The notes beneath the pieces were generated by a model. The model saw only the letters and a list, made by a program, of their open reading frames with translations. It was not told the origin of the DNA and made no database searches. DNA of 64,000 nt, taken from positions 1 through 64,000 of IMG/VR virus record IMGVR_UViG_3300045007_000107. The stretch is one strand, 5' to 3'. A program made the translations under genes and the position numbers. Shown here piece by piece: positions 12,675 through 39,242 of the stretch. How positions within the stretch are numbered: position 1 is the first letter of the stretch; every line of letters starts with the position of its first letter. Source of the DNA: a virus.

Positions 12675-13904
12675 ATGCCCCTGGCTCGTCGTGGCCCTCC
12701 CGCGTCGTCCCCTGCCGCTCCCCCCGTGCAGCCGTCTGCAAGCCCCCGTGGCGGTATCGCTCGCCGTCCCTCGCAAGTAGAAAGCGAGCATGTAGTTACC
12801 GGTGAACTCGCCGCAGTCATCAATCAAATCCGTGAAGTACACGCCCCGTCCGTCATCATCAAGGGCAGCACAGCGAAGAAGAACTTCGGGCGTGTCGCGT
12901 CCGGTATCCTCTCGCTGGATCTCTGCCTCGCGGGCGGCCTGATGCTCTCGCGCGGTAACATGATCTACGGCAACCGGTCGGCGGGTAAGTCCACCGCCTC
13001 CTGTCGGTTCATCGCTGGCGTGCAGCGCATGTTCCCCGATAAGTACGCTGTCGTCATGGATTTCGAAGGAACGTTCGATACCGCATGGGCCGCGCTCAAC
13101 GGGTGCGACCTAGACCGCCTCTTTATCGTGGAGCCGCCAACCGGCGAGGCGGGTATCGACATGGCGCATGGTCTCTTCTGCGCGGAAGAGGTTTCCATGG
13201 TCGTGACGGACTCCATCGCGATGATTACGCCGATGAAGGAAATCGCCAACTCGGCGGAGGACATGCTTCCGGGTATTCACGCCCGTGTCATCGGCAACTA
13301 TATTCGACGCCTCAACAATGCGATGCTTTCGGAACGCCAGCGGAACCACCACCCCTTGCTATTGCACCTCAACCAATGGCGTATGTCTATCGGCGTCACC
13401 TTCGGCGACCCTCGCGTTCTGCCGGGCGGTCGTGCCTTGGAATTCTCGACCTCTCAACAGATCGAGATGTACAACACCGAACACTTCTCGACCGACAAGG
13501 ACAAGAGCAGCGGGGCACCGAAGCTCTCCAAGGAAGAGAAGGCCGCGCTCAAAGAGCAGGGCGTTACCGCCAACGGCGAAAAGCTCGTCATGTTCAACGA
13601 GCACTCGTTCAAGATCACGAAGGATAAGACGGGAGGTCGTATCAAGGATGGGCGCTTCAAGCTCATTCGCGACGAGTCCATGGGCCTACCCGTGGGCTAC
13701 ATCGATCAGTCCCGTAGCATCGTGCAGCATGGCCTCAAGCGCGGCGTGCTGTCCGGTGCTCCTAATTCGTTCAGCCATGACGACTATCGCAAGTGGGGCG
13801 GTGCCGGCGATTTCGTTAAGTGGCTGGTCGAAAACCCGGAGGCCGAGCGGGCAATCGTCGGCCAAATCGTTGAAACCTACCGTCAAGCATGGGGTGTAAT
13901 GTAA
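12675..13904 (+). CDS. uvsX: RecA/UvsX-like recombinase
   Basis: A 409-residue strand-exchange ATPase. It begins MPLARRG (tag) and a Pro/Ser linker with the 14-bp repeat (VQPSASPRG). The core has GGLMLSRGNMIYGNRSAGKST (Walker A GNRSAGKST), VVMDFEGTFD and SMVVTDSIAM (Walker B), and an LLLHLNQW segment as in RecA motifs. The start at 12675 has GCGGAG upstream; an earlier in-frame ATG lies within the preceding hairpin. Confidence 0.87.
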   Translation: MPLARRGPPASSPAAPPVQPSASPRGGIARRPSQVESEHVVTGELAAVINQIREVHAPSVIIKGSTAKKNFGRVASGILSLDLCLAGGLMLSRGNMIYGNRSAGKSTASCRFIAGVQRMFPDKYAVVMDFEGTFDTAWAALNGCDLDRLFIVEPPTGEAGIDMAHGLFCAEEVSMVVTDSIAMITPMKEIANSAEDMLPGIHARVIGNYIRRLNNAMLSERQRNHHPLLLHLNQWRMSIGVTFGDPRVLPGGRALEFSTSQQIEMYNTEHFSTDKDKSSGAPKLSKEEKAALKEQGVTANGEKLVMFNEHSFKITKDKTGGRIKDGRFKLIRDESMGLPVGYIDQSRSIVQHGLKRGVLSGAPNSFSHDDYRKWGGAGDFVKWLVENPEAERAIVGQIVETYRQAWGVM

Positions 13905-19190: not shown

Positions 19191-20474
19191 ATGCCCGACA
19201 CCGACGATGACAAACCGACGTTCGAACCGTTGCACCCGGCATTCGTGGGCGAAGCGGACGTGCTCGCCTACTCGGCGCACGCCAAGCGCGACCTAGACGG
19301 CAAGCGGTATCGCGTCAACCTCACCCACAACACCTGCGCCTGCCCGAAGGGTCAAGCCTGGGAGTGGCACAACACGCAGGAGCGGTGGGTTCCCTTCCAA
19401 TACTGCTCGCACAAGCTGCGTGCCATGGCTGAGATTGTCGATCTCAACGAGCGGCCCATGGACATGCTGTGGGCCTACATCAAAGCACTCGCTTCGCGCT
19501 ACAACAAGTACGAGGTCGTCAGCGCCTTCCACAAGGAGCTTCGGCGCGGGGCGGTCGAGCAAGCGGTCTTTTGGGGTTCCGTGCTCATGACGAGCCGGGG
19601 CCAAAAGGGCGTCTACAAGTACCTGCTCAATATCCTCTACGAGGAAACGCGCGACCATACGCTCGGCGCCCACATCCTCGAAAGGTGCATCGACAAGGAC
19701 AAGCAGAGCTACGAGGACTTGTGCCGCTGCATCGCTCTCTTCTGCCGCAGCAAAAAGAAATGGGAGCTTCCGCACCGCATCACCTATCTCGAAGGCGAGA
19801 TGCGCGGCTACGCCAAGCTTGTCAATGAGTTTGGTCGCGACGTTGCCAAGGGCGGCGACATCGTCTCGGAACGCTTCCGTAACAAGCTCGACGCGTCGAT
19901 GTTCAAGGGTATGGCGGACGGTGACCTCACCCTCTTCCAGTACGGCCTCAAGGGTCTGCAAAAGTCCAAGACGGCCAACATCGACAAGCTGCGTGCAGAC
20001 ATCTGCAACCGGCTGCTCATCCAGGCACGCAAGAGCGATCCACAAATCGGCATCGCGATGGAGGCGTTTCTCGCAAGGCGCGCGTCCCACGGTTTCGGTC
20101 TCGGCTACCACGAGCTAAACGCCCTCGGGGATCTTCTCACGGGCGAACCCTATGCGCCGGGCTGCACGACTGCGGAAGCGATACAGCGGGCCTATACGGA
20201 CCCCGCCCCGCCCCTACGTCTCGGGGTTACGCCGGTTATTCCGGTATACGCCCAGGACAATCACACTTGGGCCGGCAAAGCCCTCATTCGCCGGTACCCT
20301 ACGGAATGGCTCCCCAAGGCCGATCAGCAGCATTTCGACCTGCGGCTTTGCGGTGCCTACATCGGTGTCGTTTGGCGACACCTCGCACAAAAGCAGTTCG
20401 AGGACATCACCTGCGAGTGGCGTTCCCCGGATTGGCCTAAATGGGCTCTCGTCGTTCAGCAACTCTGGTATTGA
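19191..20474 (+). CDS. SWIM-type zinc finger fused to clamp-loader/MgsA-like helical domain
   Basis: A 427-residue protein. RVNLTHNTCACPKGQ...QYCSHKLRAM forms a SWIM-like CxC...CxH site (about 45-80). The next part (AFHKELRRGAVEQAVFWGSVLM) resembles the C-terminal helical domain of MgsA/RarA or clamp-loader subunits. The ATPase itself is absent. ACGGAGCTACA precedes the ATG, and a TATACT lies upstream. It is likely an accessory to DNA replication or repair. Confidence 0.7.
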   Translation: MPDTDDDKPTFEPLHPAFVGEADVLAYSAHAKRDLDGKRYRVNLTHNTCACPKGQAWEWHNTQERWVPFQYCSHKLRAMAEIVDLNERPMDMLWAYIKALASRYNKYEVVSAFHKELRRGAVEQAVFWGSVLMTSRGQKGVYKYLLNILYEETRDHTLGAHILERCIDKDKQSYEDLCRCIALFCRSKKKWELPHRITYLEGEMRGYAKLVNEFGRDVAKGGDIVSERFRNKLDASMFKGMADGDLTLFQYGLKGLQKSKTANIDKLRADICNRLLIQARKSDPQIGIAMEAFLARRASHGFGLGYHELNALGDLLTGEPYAPGCTTAEAIQRAYTDPAPPLRLGVTPVIPVYAQDNHTWAGKALIRRYPTEWLPKADQQHFDLRLCGAYIGVVWRHLAQKQFEDITCEWRSPDWPKWALVVQQLWY

Positions 20475-21888: not shown

Positions 21889-22120
21889 AAGGCGAATAGT
21901 AAATGGAAAACTGGCGCTTACAGTTGGAATAGTAAATGGATTAGGCCCTGGGTAGGTGGGGTAAGAGCCTCGCGTAGACCCTGTACGTGTACAACTGGAA
22001 TGGGTGTTCTGTTCCGGTGTATGGGAGTCCTTGGAGTAAGACTGACGTAATCAGCTTGTGCCGTAGCAGGGTTTACGATTTACTCGATAACGGGCCGTGC
22101 GGGCCTAGCGGAGCTTTGCA
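21889..22120 (+). promoter_or_regulatory. Non-coding leader with AATAGTAAATGG repeats and hairpin
   Basis: No gene fits. Two exact AATAGTAAATGG words (21895 and 21928) resemble those at 37.8 and 39.6 kb. A hairpin with GGCC arms around a GTGCG top (22092-22106) precedes AGCGGAGC, the next ribosome binding site. Confidence 0.5.
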
Positions 22121-22691: not shown

Positions 22692-23179
22692 GGGTCGCGG
22701 TCAACCTCTGCCTGTTCACGATGAAGGACCTCCCCACCTTCACGCAGAGCGAGGGCGGCAAAAAGATCCAGGGACTTTACGCGGGTCTCGCGCGCGAACT
22801 GTTGCAAGGCTATACCAACCCGGCCTCAGCCCGCCTTGTGCGTGACCGGATCGCGACGGAGTGCAAGCATCTGCTCACCCTCGTCTCGCCCGAGGAGTAC
22901 AACCCCACCCAGCGGTTCAACATCACCGCCAAGTTCTTCGATGATGCGGCCAAGGCCCTCGGCTGGCACGACAGCTTCTCGCGGTCTGTGCGCGCGGTGC
23001 TATTGGTTAATCGCACCTTTACGCAGGAGCAAAAATCGGTCTTGCAACTTGCAGGGTCGCCCAATATAAACGACCTAGCCATCGACGCGGGCGCGGTAAC
23101 GCTCATGGTTGGGGCCAAGGCACGCGGGTTGTTTTCGTCGGTTGACAAGCTCCCCGTTTTGTCTCAGGCTTCTCGTTAG
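22592..23179 (+). CDS. Hypothetical protein
   Basis: A 195-residue soluble helical protein with no known motif. GAGGCGCGC precedes the ATG. The long overlap with the upstream gene leaves the start uncertain; a later Met (FTMKDLPTF, about residue 44) is an alternative. Confidence 0.7.
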   Translation: MRNPDQKDSVRGGNEQAPIGKGVNLANLRPIELGVAVNLCLFTMKDLPTFTQSEGGKKIQGLYAGLARELLQGYTNPASARLVRDRIATECKHLLTLVSPEEYNPTQRFNITAKFFDDAAKALGWHDSFSRSVRAVLLVNRTFTQEQKSVLQLAGSPNINDLAIDAGAVTLMVGAKARGLFSSVDKLPVLSQASR

Positions 23180-23737
23180 GAATTCGGTTTGCGGTGGCTG
23201 GTTTGCTCCGATTACCAGTCATCGCCGCCGGGGGTAGCGAAGGTGGGGACCGCACTCCCTTCCCGTCGCCAAGACCCCCGGCGCAACTATCCCTAGGTTG
23301 GTCGGAGCCTAGGGTGACCCGGCCGGCATCCCGCCGGTCAACGCGAGGGTAGTCGTCAATGAACATTCTGCGGAATGTTAATCCACCGTTCTTCTGACGA
23401 TCAGGGCCTATGCGGCGGCCCCTAGGGGTTGCCTAGATACTGGATAGGAAGAGGCGACAGTCGTTAGACGACGGCCCATCTCATAGCTAGAGAGGCGCAC
23501 TAGCCCGCCTACCGGGAACGGCACGAGGCATTGACGGTGATACAACCCGAGCCTATGACTGCCCCCGACAATAGGATAGCTTCTGGCCCGGAGGAAGTTA
23601 CGTCTGTATGTGCTGAACCTTAGCAGAGTTATCCTTTGCGGTTCGTCGTTGAGCGGTTCGGCTAACACCCTGCGGAGAGTGGGCTCCGGCAAGACTGTAA
23701 CTTCCTCCCCCGCCGGCCTCTAGGCCGGTTTTATTTT
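23180..23737 (+). ncRNA. Candidate large structured non-coding RNA
   Basis: A roughly 550-nt stretch without a credible gene, dense in strong inverted repeats. A long stem CGCCGGGGGT with ACCCCCGGCG encloses an inner hairpin. Others are CCCTAGG/CCTAGGG, AACATTC/GAATGTT (TGCG loop) and CGGAG/CTCCG. An 11-bp distant helix pairs GAGGAAGTTAC (23592) with GTAACTTCCTC (23697) around a multibranch region. It ends at an intrinsic terminator. Size and setting recall the large phage RNAs ROOL and GOLLD, but I cannot assign a family. No clear promoter is visible. Confidence 0.5.
23712..23737 (+). terminator. Intrinsic terminator
   Basis: GCCGGCC pairs with GGCCGG around TCTA, followed by TTTTATTTT. It ends the candidate large RNA. 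Confidence 0.85.
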
Positions 23738-23740
23738 GCC

Positions 23741-23802: not shown

Positions 23803-23874
23803 ATGAAGAATTTTGTCGCCTTTGTCTTCTGGTCTATGATCGCGGTTACTGCGGTAATACTGGTGTTCTCATGA
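23803..23874 (+). CDS. 23-residue membrane peptide
   Basis: MKNFVAFVFWSMIAVTAVILVFS is a single predicted transmembrane helix with a Lys near the N-terminus. It follows a strong promoter and its stop overlaps the next start (ATGA). Small toxic or inhibitor membrane peptides look like this. No family is assignable. Confidence 0.55.
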   Translation: MKNFVAFVFWSMIAVTAVILVFS

Positions 23875-25193: not shown

Positions 25194-25212
25194 CGGACCC
25201 GTGCGGGGTCCG
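25194..25212 (+). promoter_or_regulatory. Leader hairpin with CGTGCG top
   Basis: CGGACCC pairs with GGGTCCG around GTGCG, next to the ribosome binding site GGGAGC of the 25224 gene. One of nine such leaders in the window. Confidence 0.6.
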
Positions 25213-25223
25213 GGAGCTTTTTA

Positions 25224-25952: not shown

Positions 25953-26045
25953 CCTTGCAGACGGATGCAATATGCTTGCGTCGGGGGAGACCCCGGCGCA
26001 TTCTGCGTCTACGGCCCGTGCGGGGTCGCAACCGGAGCAACAGTT

Positions 26046-28286: not shown

Positions 28287-28305
28287 GGGCGACCGTGCGG
28301 CGCCC
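28287..28305 (+). promoter_or_regulatory. Leader hairpin with CGTGCG top
   Basis: GGGCG pairs with CGCCC around ACCGTGCGG. ACGGAGC follows seven bases later. Confidence 0.6.
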
Positions 28306-28324
28306 TATACGGAGCAAAGGGACA

Positions 28325-29036: not shown

Positions 29037-29077
29037 GCCCCGCTTGCAGCCGACTGCAATGCGGGGCATTCTTTTTT
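29037..29077 (+). terminator. Intrinsic terminator built around a 14-bp repeat
   Basis: GCCCCGC-TTGCAG pairs with CTGCAA-T-GCGGGGC around CCGA, so the repeat palindrome (29045-29058) is the top of the terminator stem. CTTTTTT follows. Confidence 0.8.
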
Positions 29078-29078
29078 C

Positions 29079-29093
29079 GGGACGTGCGGTCCC
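29079..29093 (+). promoter_or_regulatory. Leader hairpin with CGTGCG top
   Basis: GGGAC pairs with GTCCC around GTGCG, followed by ACGGAGC. Confidence 0.6.
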
Positions 29094-29107
29094 ACGGAGC
29101 AACGACC

Positions 29108-29675: not shown

Positions 29676-29710
29676 CGATCTTGCGCCGTGCGGGCGCATC
29701 GGAGCCAGCC

Positions 29711-38267: not shown

Positions 38268-38318
38268 TTGCATCCGTCTGCACGATCCGGTACGTATTAC
38301 ATCGGGTCGTGCGGACCC
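38268..38318 (+). promoter_or_regulatory. 14-bp repeat leader with CGTGCG hairpin
   Basis: TTGCAT within a repeat copy, then TACGTA 17 bp on (weak promoter), then GGGTC pairing with GACCC around GTGCG (38304-38318) and ACGGAG. Confidence 0.5.
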
Positions 38319-38331
38319 ACGGAGATATGTT

Positions 38332-38532: not shown

Positions 38533-38567
38533 AGCTACGGGGCGTGCGGCCCCACGGAGCAAAGACC

Positions 38568-39199: not shown

Positions 39200-39207
39200 A
39201 GCCCCTG

Positions 39208-39230
39208 CCCCGTGCGGGGTTTCTTTTTGC
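39208..39230 (+). terminator. CGTGCG hairpin with T run, possible attenuator
   Basis: CCCC pairs with GGGG around GTGC, followed by TTTCTTTTT and GCGGAGC. It has terminator shape but sits in the leader of the 39243 gene, so it may act as an attenuator. Confidence 0.5.
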
Positions 39231-39242
39231 GGAGCTACTGTT

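Follow-up and report, generated by a model that had tools for sequence, protein, structure and literature searches.

Positions 23181-23283 of the window make up a conserved RNA module of two hairpins, which opens a non-coding region (23180-23737); the window comprises 64,000 nucleotides, the initial 64 kb of a virus record of 101,701 bp. The apical loops of the two hairpins, UUGCUCCGAUU and CCGCAC, are the reverse complements of the phage Shine-Dalgarno sequence CGGAGCAA and of GUGCGG, and the order of the loop motifs in the RNA is antiparallel to the order of the two motifs in the leaders of early genes. Because two loops are antisense to ribosome-binding leaders and the RNA has its own terminator, the module points to an antisense regulatory RNA.

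Fold, boundaries and coding status of the region

The region lies between genes of the same strand, begins directly after a stop codon and is located in a variable part of the genome a few kb past the early block. This block encodes DnaB, DNA polymerase I, primase, helicase, UvsX/RecA, a Holliday resolvase, a Cas4-type exonuclease, a RuvC-like resolvase and a protein with CxC..C..H cysteines. Synteny of this block extends to Agrobacterium phage JP1 and to the Rhodobacter phages RcTiptonus and RcMenchie, and the host is therefore probably an alphaproteobacterium.

The absence of a gene, noted in the original prediction, was borne out, with 8-10 stops in each plus-strand frame and a longest stop-free run of 56 codons; two minus-strand open reading frames (94 and 87 aa) were without a PHROG match. 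The plus strand folds at -246.6 kcal/mol (z = -4.43, 0/100 shuffles as good) and the minus strand at z = -2.24. Compared with shuffles, the 5' part (23181-23300, z = -3.92) and the 3' part (23561-23737, z = -3.04) fold beyond chance, whereas the middle (23301-23560) is at chance level (z = -1.47, 17/200 shuffles as good). When 160-nt windows were scanned genome-wide on both strands, 23580-23739 had the most extreme z, a rough ranking given the few shuffles used. A distant helix had been predicted with 11 bp and is in fact perfect over 12 bp (GGAGGAAGTTAC, 23590-23601, with GTAACTTCCTCC, 23697-23708), and the predicted intrinsic terminator is present as GCCGGCCTCTAGGCCGGT-TTTATTTT at 23712. These results support the reading of 23180-23737 as a structured non-coding RNA region ending in an intrinsic terminator at 23737. 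The parts of the region are as follows.

23142-23147, + strand: candidate -35 box TTGACA of the RNA, read from the sequence
23181-23190, + strand: conserved single-stranded 5' end AATTCGGTTT, from the alignment (AATTCGATTT in the homologue L019)
23191-23225, + strand: hairpin 1 of 12 bp, whose apical loop (23203-23213) shows complementarity to the phage Shine-Dalgarno sequence CGGAGC(AA) (folds, pair counts, k-mer test)
23226-23283, + strand: hairpin 2 with a base stem of 10 bp, whose apical loop CCGCAC (23250-23255) shows complementarity to the leader loop GUGCG(G) (folds, pair counts, k-mer test, scan of apical loops)
23284-23560, + strand: middle part, several hairpins, no relative, chance-level fold (z of 23301-23560)
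23531-23559, + strand: TTGACG-17-TATGAC, a possible promoter within the region and ahead of the 3' domain, picked by eye and speculative
23590-23708, + strand: 3' domain closed by the perfect 12-bp helix GGAGGAAGUUAC/GUAACUUCCUCC, with a second GCUCCG at 23683 (fold)
23712-23737, + strand: intrinsic terminator (terminator scan)

The -10 sequence that goes with the candidate -35 box is poor (CAGGCT at 23165-23170), and the possible internal promoter was absent from the results of a consensus promoter scan.

A homologue in a related phage

No match was obtained with blastn or megablast of the region in phages or with tblastn using the upstream flanking protein, both flanking proteins were without a relative in IMG/VR, and the region as a DNA query gave chance-level matches only against kin records. 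Alignment of a syntenic marker protein (19191-20474) led to further phages, including L019 (IMGVR_UViG_3300044530_001128), in which a 326-nt gap is situated about 2.2 kb after the marker gene, as compared with 2.7 kb for the region described here. This gap contains a compact RNA of 154 nt with a fold z of -6.6, in which the sequence AATTCGATTT is followed by two hairpins and a strong terminator; a promoter (TTGACA-17-TAATAT at 13480-13508) is located just 5' of the RNA.

A covariance model of L019 13515-13623 returned 23181-23283 as the top non-self match in 562 kb of kin DNA (25.1 bits, E = 0.01) and at E = 1.5e-4 in the 8-kb neighbourhood, with boundaries identical to those of the L019 two-hairpin part. 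In the reverse search from 23181-23283, L019 13515-13622 was the top match outside the 64-kb stretch, and in a sequence-only alignment the L019 RNA site ranked first among 2168 windows of that phage with 0/1000 shuffles equal. All 18 pairs in the base helices of both hairpins are kept between the two phages; four pairs are changed on both sides, two on one side and none is broken. Covariation in relatives, proposed as a check with the original prediction, was thus found in the 5' module, and as a comparison of two sequences it is suggestive. The conserved portion amounts to the 5' ~105 nt of the region and leaves the distant helix outside; a relative of the 3' domain was not found. In both phages a small hydrophobic protein follows the RNA terminator, at 23803-23874 (23 aa) here and, longer, at 13705-13890 in L019.

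The IMG/VR pattern TTGCTCCG..CGCACTCC gave at least 119 matches, and among the matches listed there was one besides L019 that was noncoding with a strong hairpin. This match (L145), a long perfect hairpin of a different kind, was judged unrelated. The pattern AATTCGRTTT..TTGCTCCG gave 38 matches with the phage of L019 as sole homologue, the next candidate (L172) being located within a minus-strand endolysin-like reading frame. Model R1 returned nothing convincing from 11 kin records and 289 bacterial genomes (one match at E = 0.009), and a copy of the module was absent from the 11 kin records and from four additional kin loci.

The same-strand intergenic position and the start directly after a stop codon would suit a region that belongs to a neighbour, either as the untranslated tail of the operon before it or as a cis-acting leader of the gene after it. 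The covarying module, however, is conserved apart from the flanking genes, and past the terminator the following gene has a promoter-like sequence of its own, TTGCAT-16-TATAAT at ~23739, which makes this reading highly improbable. The uneven fold of the region would be accounted for by two neighbouring RNAs, the conserved antisense RNA on the 5' side and, distinct from it, an RNA of ~175 nt on the 3' side with the promoter at 23531-23559, the 12-bp helix and the common terminator. The L019 counterpart of the 5' module forms an entire RNA of 154 nt that ends in a terminator of its own. This arrangement is nonetheless decidedly improbable, since the consensus scan shows no terminator between the parts and the internal promoter is a motif only.

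The original prediction had pointed to large phage-encoded RNAs. A large ornate scaffold RNA of the GOLLD or ROOL type would be of comparable size, and phage origin and a terminator agree with it. However, when the region was searched against the 4227 families of Rfam, none was found at gathering score, the two weak matches at E up to 10 were irrelevant, and GOLLD, ROOL and OLE, for which a search had been suggested, were absent even to E = 10. Furthermore, about 105 nt are conserved, within a sole homologue of 154 nt, the middle folds like shuffles and the 3' domain is without a relative, all of which leaves this type very unlikely. What stands of the predicted large structured RNA is its structured non-coding character, based on fold statistics, the terminator and covariation in one relative, and not the large ornate kind. 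In the same 4227 families, neither AbcR nor P1 c4 RNA had a match in the region.

The corresponding variable part encodes proteins in two kin loci (L008 and L009) and a permuted tmRNA in a third (L010, IMGVR_UViG_3300035698_003405), where an alpha_tmRNA match of 148 bits was found at 13192-13637, ~1.9 kb after the marker gene. The L010 tmRNA is of the permuted alphaproteobacterial type (RF01849), with the tag ANDNVQADAIAIAA followed by a stop and a long insert between the acceptor and coding pieces, and a closed multi-hairpin structure is located 5' of it at 13036-13133. The position of this gene raised the idea that the region is a decayed phage tmRNA. In the region, Rfam gave no tmRNA match and ARAGORN neither a tRNA nor a tmRNA, although the same tools detect the tmRNA of L010; no tag reading frame was seen and a different homologue, L019, fits. 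The idea was dropped once that homologue had been found and, since Rfam and ARAGORN refute it at their sensitivity, can be given next to no weight.

Leader hairpins of early genes and loop complementarity

Leaders were found by looking in the phage for complements of the loop word TTGCTCCG. Nine plus-strand genes between 22 and 39 kb have a 5' hairpin with an invariant core CGTGCGG (a GTGCG loop closed by C-G), followed by a Shine-Dalgarno sequence, which is CGGAGC in 7/9 genes, and the ATG.

22090-22120, + strand: leader hairpin CGTGCGG and Shine-Dalgarno CGGAGC, before ATG 22121
25194-25223, + strand: leader hairpin and Shine-Dalgarno GGGAGC, before ATG 25224
26011-26045, + strand: leader hairpin and Shine-Dalgarno CGGAGCAA, before ATG 26046
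28288-28324, + strand: leader hairpin (irregular stem) and Shine-Dalgarno CGGAGCAA, before ATG 28325
29077-29107, + strand: leader hairpin and Shine-Dalgarno CGGAGCAA, before ATG 29108
29681-29710, + strand: leader hairpin and Shine-Dalgarno CGGAGCC, before ATG 29711
38302-38331, + strand: leader hairpin and Shine-Dalgarno CGGAGA, before ATG 38332
38537-38567, + strand: leader hairpin and Shine-Dalgarno CGGAGCAA, before ATG 38568
39205-39242, + strand: leader hairpin and Shine-Dalgarno CGGAGCT, before ATG 39243

The stem sequences are different, with 83% of cells paired, and show covariation (0.546 as compared with 0.197 +/- 0.063 in shuffles, 0/500 shuffles), and the C[GUGCG]G leader hairpin is therefore a real, selected RNA element. 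In most cases a palindromic promoter/operator (TTGCAGcCGtCTGCA ... TATTAT) lies ahead of the hairpin, and given its spacing the hairpins probably lie near mRNA 5' ends.

The early promoters, for instance those upstream of 25201, 26018, 29084, 29688, 38544, 39212, 40738 and 47826, share the palindrome TTGCAGNCGNCTGCA, which overlaps the -35 and precedes -10 boxes resembling TATTAT. In the phage of L019, TTGCAANCGNTTGCAA stands in place of this palindrome, a difference that suggests a common regulator with a drifting operator in both phages. The leaders of that phage carry a hairpin CCGGGA..TCCCGG before AGGAGCAA (e.g. G004 57933, 59473 and 56029), in which the stem is conserved and the loop variable, the opposite of the phage studied here.

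When the 556 hexamers of the RNA were compared with 99 leaders, GCTCCG (sites at 23205 in loop 1 and at 23683 in the 3' domain) ranked first with complements in 19/99 leaders and 1.7 expected, an enrichment of CTCC words that is partly built in because the leaders were chosen for having a Shine-Dalgarno sequence. The hairpin 2 loop CCGCAC was also above background (complements in 11/99 leaders, 1.9 expected), as a freer test, and CGCAC was found in an apical loop in 33 of 4064 windows (about 1%). The best leader match in the phage of L019 was again the hairpin 1 loop: GGAGCAA occurred in 14/94 leaders (0.7 expected) and GGAGCAAC in 6/94, and the flanks of loop 1 match that phage's own Shine-Dalgarno sequence. 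Unpaired segments of the RNA are thus complementary to ribosome-binding sites of other genes, while the mean accessibility-corrected duplex energy over all leaders was no better than that of shuffled RNAs (-3.53 versus -2.95 +/- 0.58).

The phage studied here contains a second structured noncoding stretch, situated shortly before tRNA-Gln and tRNA-Trp (12549-12734 of L007, record position 95549-95734), in which TTGCTCCG and CCGCAC are 36 nt apart (39 nt in the 23180-23737 RNA). It has the word TAGCAGNGTTATCCT in common with the 3' domain of the RNA (23621), and these two are the only plus-strand places in the phage where GCTCCG is followed by CCGCAC within 60 nt.

The module might be a real conserved RNA whose loop complementarity is due to chance or a by-product, and which would work by way of a protein, serve as a binder or sponge, or target a different RNA. 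That the bulk duplex-energy test was not significant agrees with this explanation, as does the conservation of CGCAC in the L019 RNA although no GUGCG leaders were found in its phage. Yet both apical loops match two conserved leader motifs in order, and a GCTCCG apical loop followed by a CGCAC apical loop was found in 1 of 15,476 folded windows from six sequence sets, namely in this RNA, for which reason we regard the explanation as rather unlikely. The RNA could also act mainly against host mRNAs with GGAGCAA-type Shine-Dalgarno sequences, as AbcR/NfeR1 do. The Shine-Dalgarno-complementary loop is the best leader match in both phages and such loops act on host mRNAs in the case of Sinorhizobium AbcR1/2 (PMC8844928); the second loop, however, matches a phage-specific leader loop, and host mRNAs as the main targets appear improbable.

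Proposed function and comparison with known systems

We consider the chances about even that the RNA is encoded by the phage to act in trans as an antisense RNA, masking leaders and repressing early genes. It would be transcribed from its own promoter near 23142 and act in trans, with the hairpin 1 loop UUGCUCCG pairing with the Shine-Dalgarno sequence CGGAGC(AA) and the hairpin 2 loop CCGCAC kissing the GUGCG loop of the hairpin just 5' of it. Such double contacts, made at the 5' end of each of nine or more early transcripts, would block ribosome entry and turn the early genes down as a set, and the 3' domain might contribute stability, a site for a protein or a further activity. More tentatively, the system may be a one-RNA post-transcriptional regulon, in which the C[GUGCG]G hairpin would serve as an address tag on at least nine early mRNAs and the two-loop antisense RNA would read the tag by a kissing contact and mask the Shine-Dalgarno sequence at the same time. 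To our knowledge, early/late control has not been described in this group of phages of ~100 kb, the relatives of Rhodobacter and Agrobacterium phages. If the proposal is true, an RNA with many targets reached through a repeated leader tag would constitute an RNA-level off-switch for early expression, and an address-tag regulon would be the equivalent, made of RNA, of a repressor with its shared operator.

GOLLD and ROOL are phage-encoded, structured RNAs in a length class like that of the region (PMC12286853), but the conserved part here is a small two-hairpin module, with no family match and no sign of their conserved multi-domain architecture. The closest functional analogues are c4 of phages P1/P7 and the alphaproteobacterial RNAs AbcR1/AbcR2 and NfeR1. 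c4 is an antisense RNA whose complementary segments, probably located in loops, block the ribosome-binding site of a phage mRNA (PMC12197685). The phage antisense RNAs described so far, P1 c4 among them, have single targets, and whereas c4 acts on one gene (ant), the RNA described here, which has no Rfam match, matches at least nine dispersed leaders. AbcR and NfeR1 are anti-Shine-Dalgarno RNAs of alphaproteobacteria (PMC8844928), to which the RNA has no sequence or Rfam match. In contrast to these RNAs, it is phage-encoded, its loop UUGCUCCG is tuned to the phage CGGAGC(AA) and not to CUCCUCCC, and it has a second loop that matches a dedicated leader hairpin.
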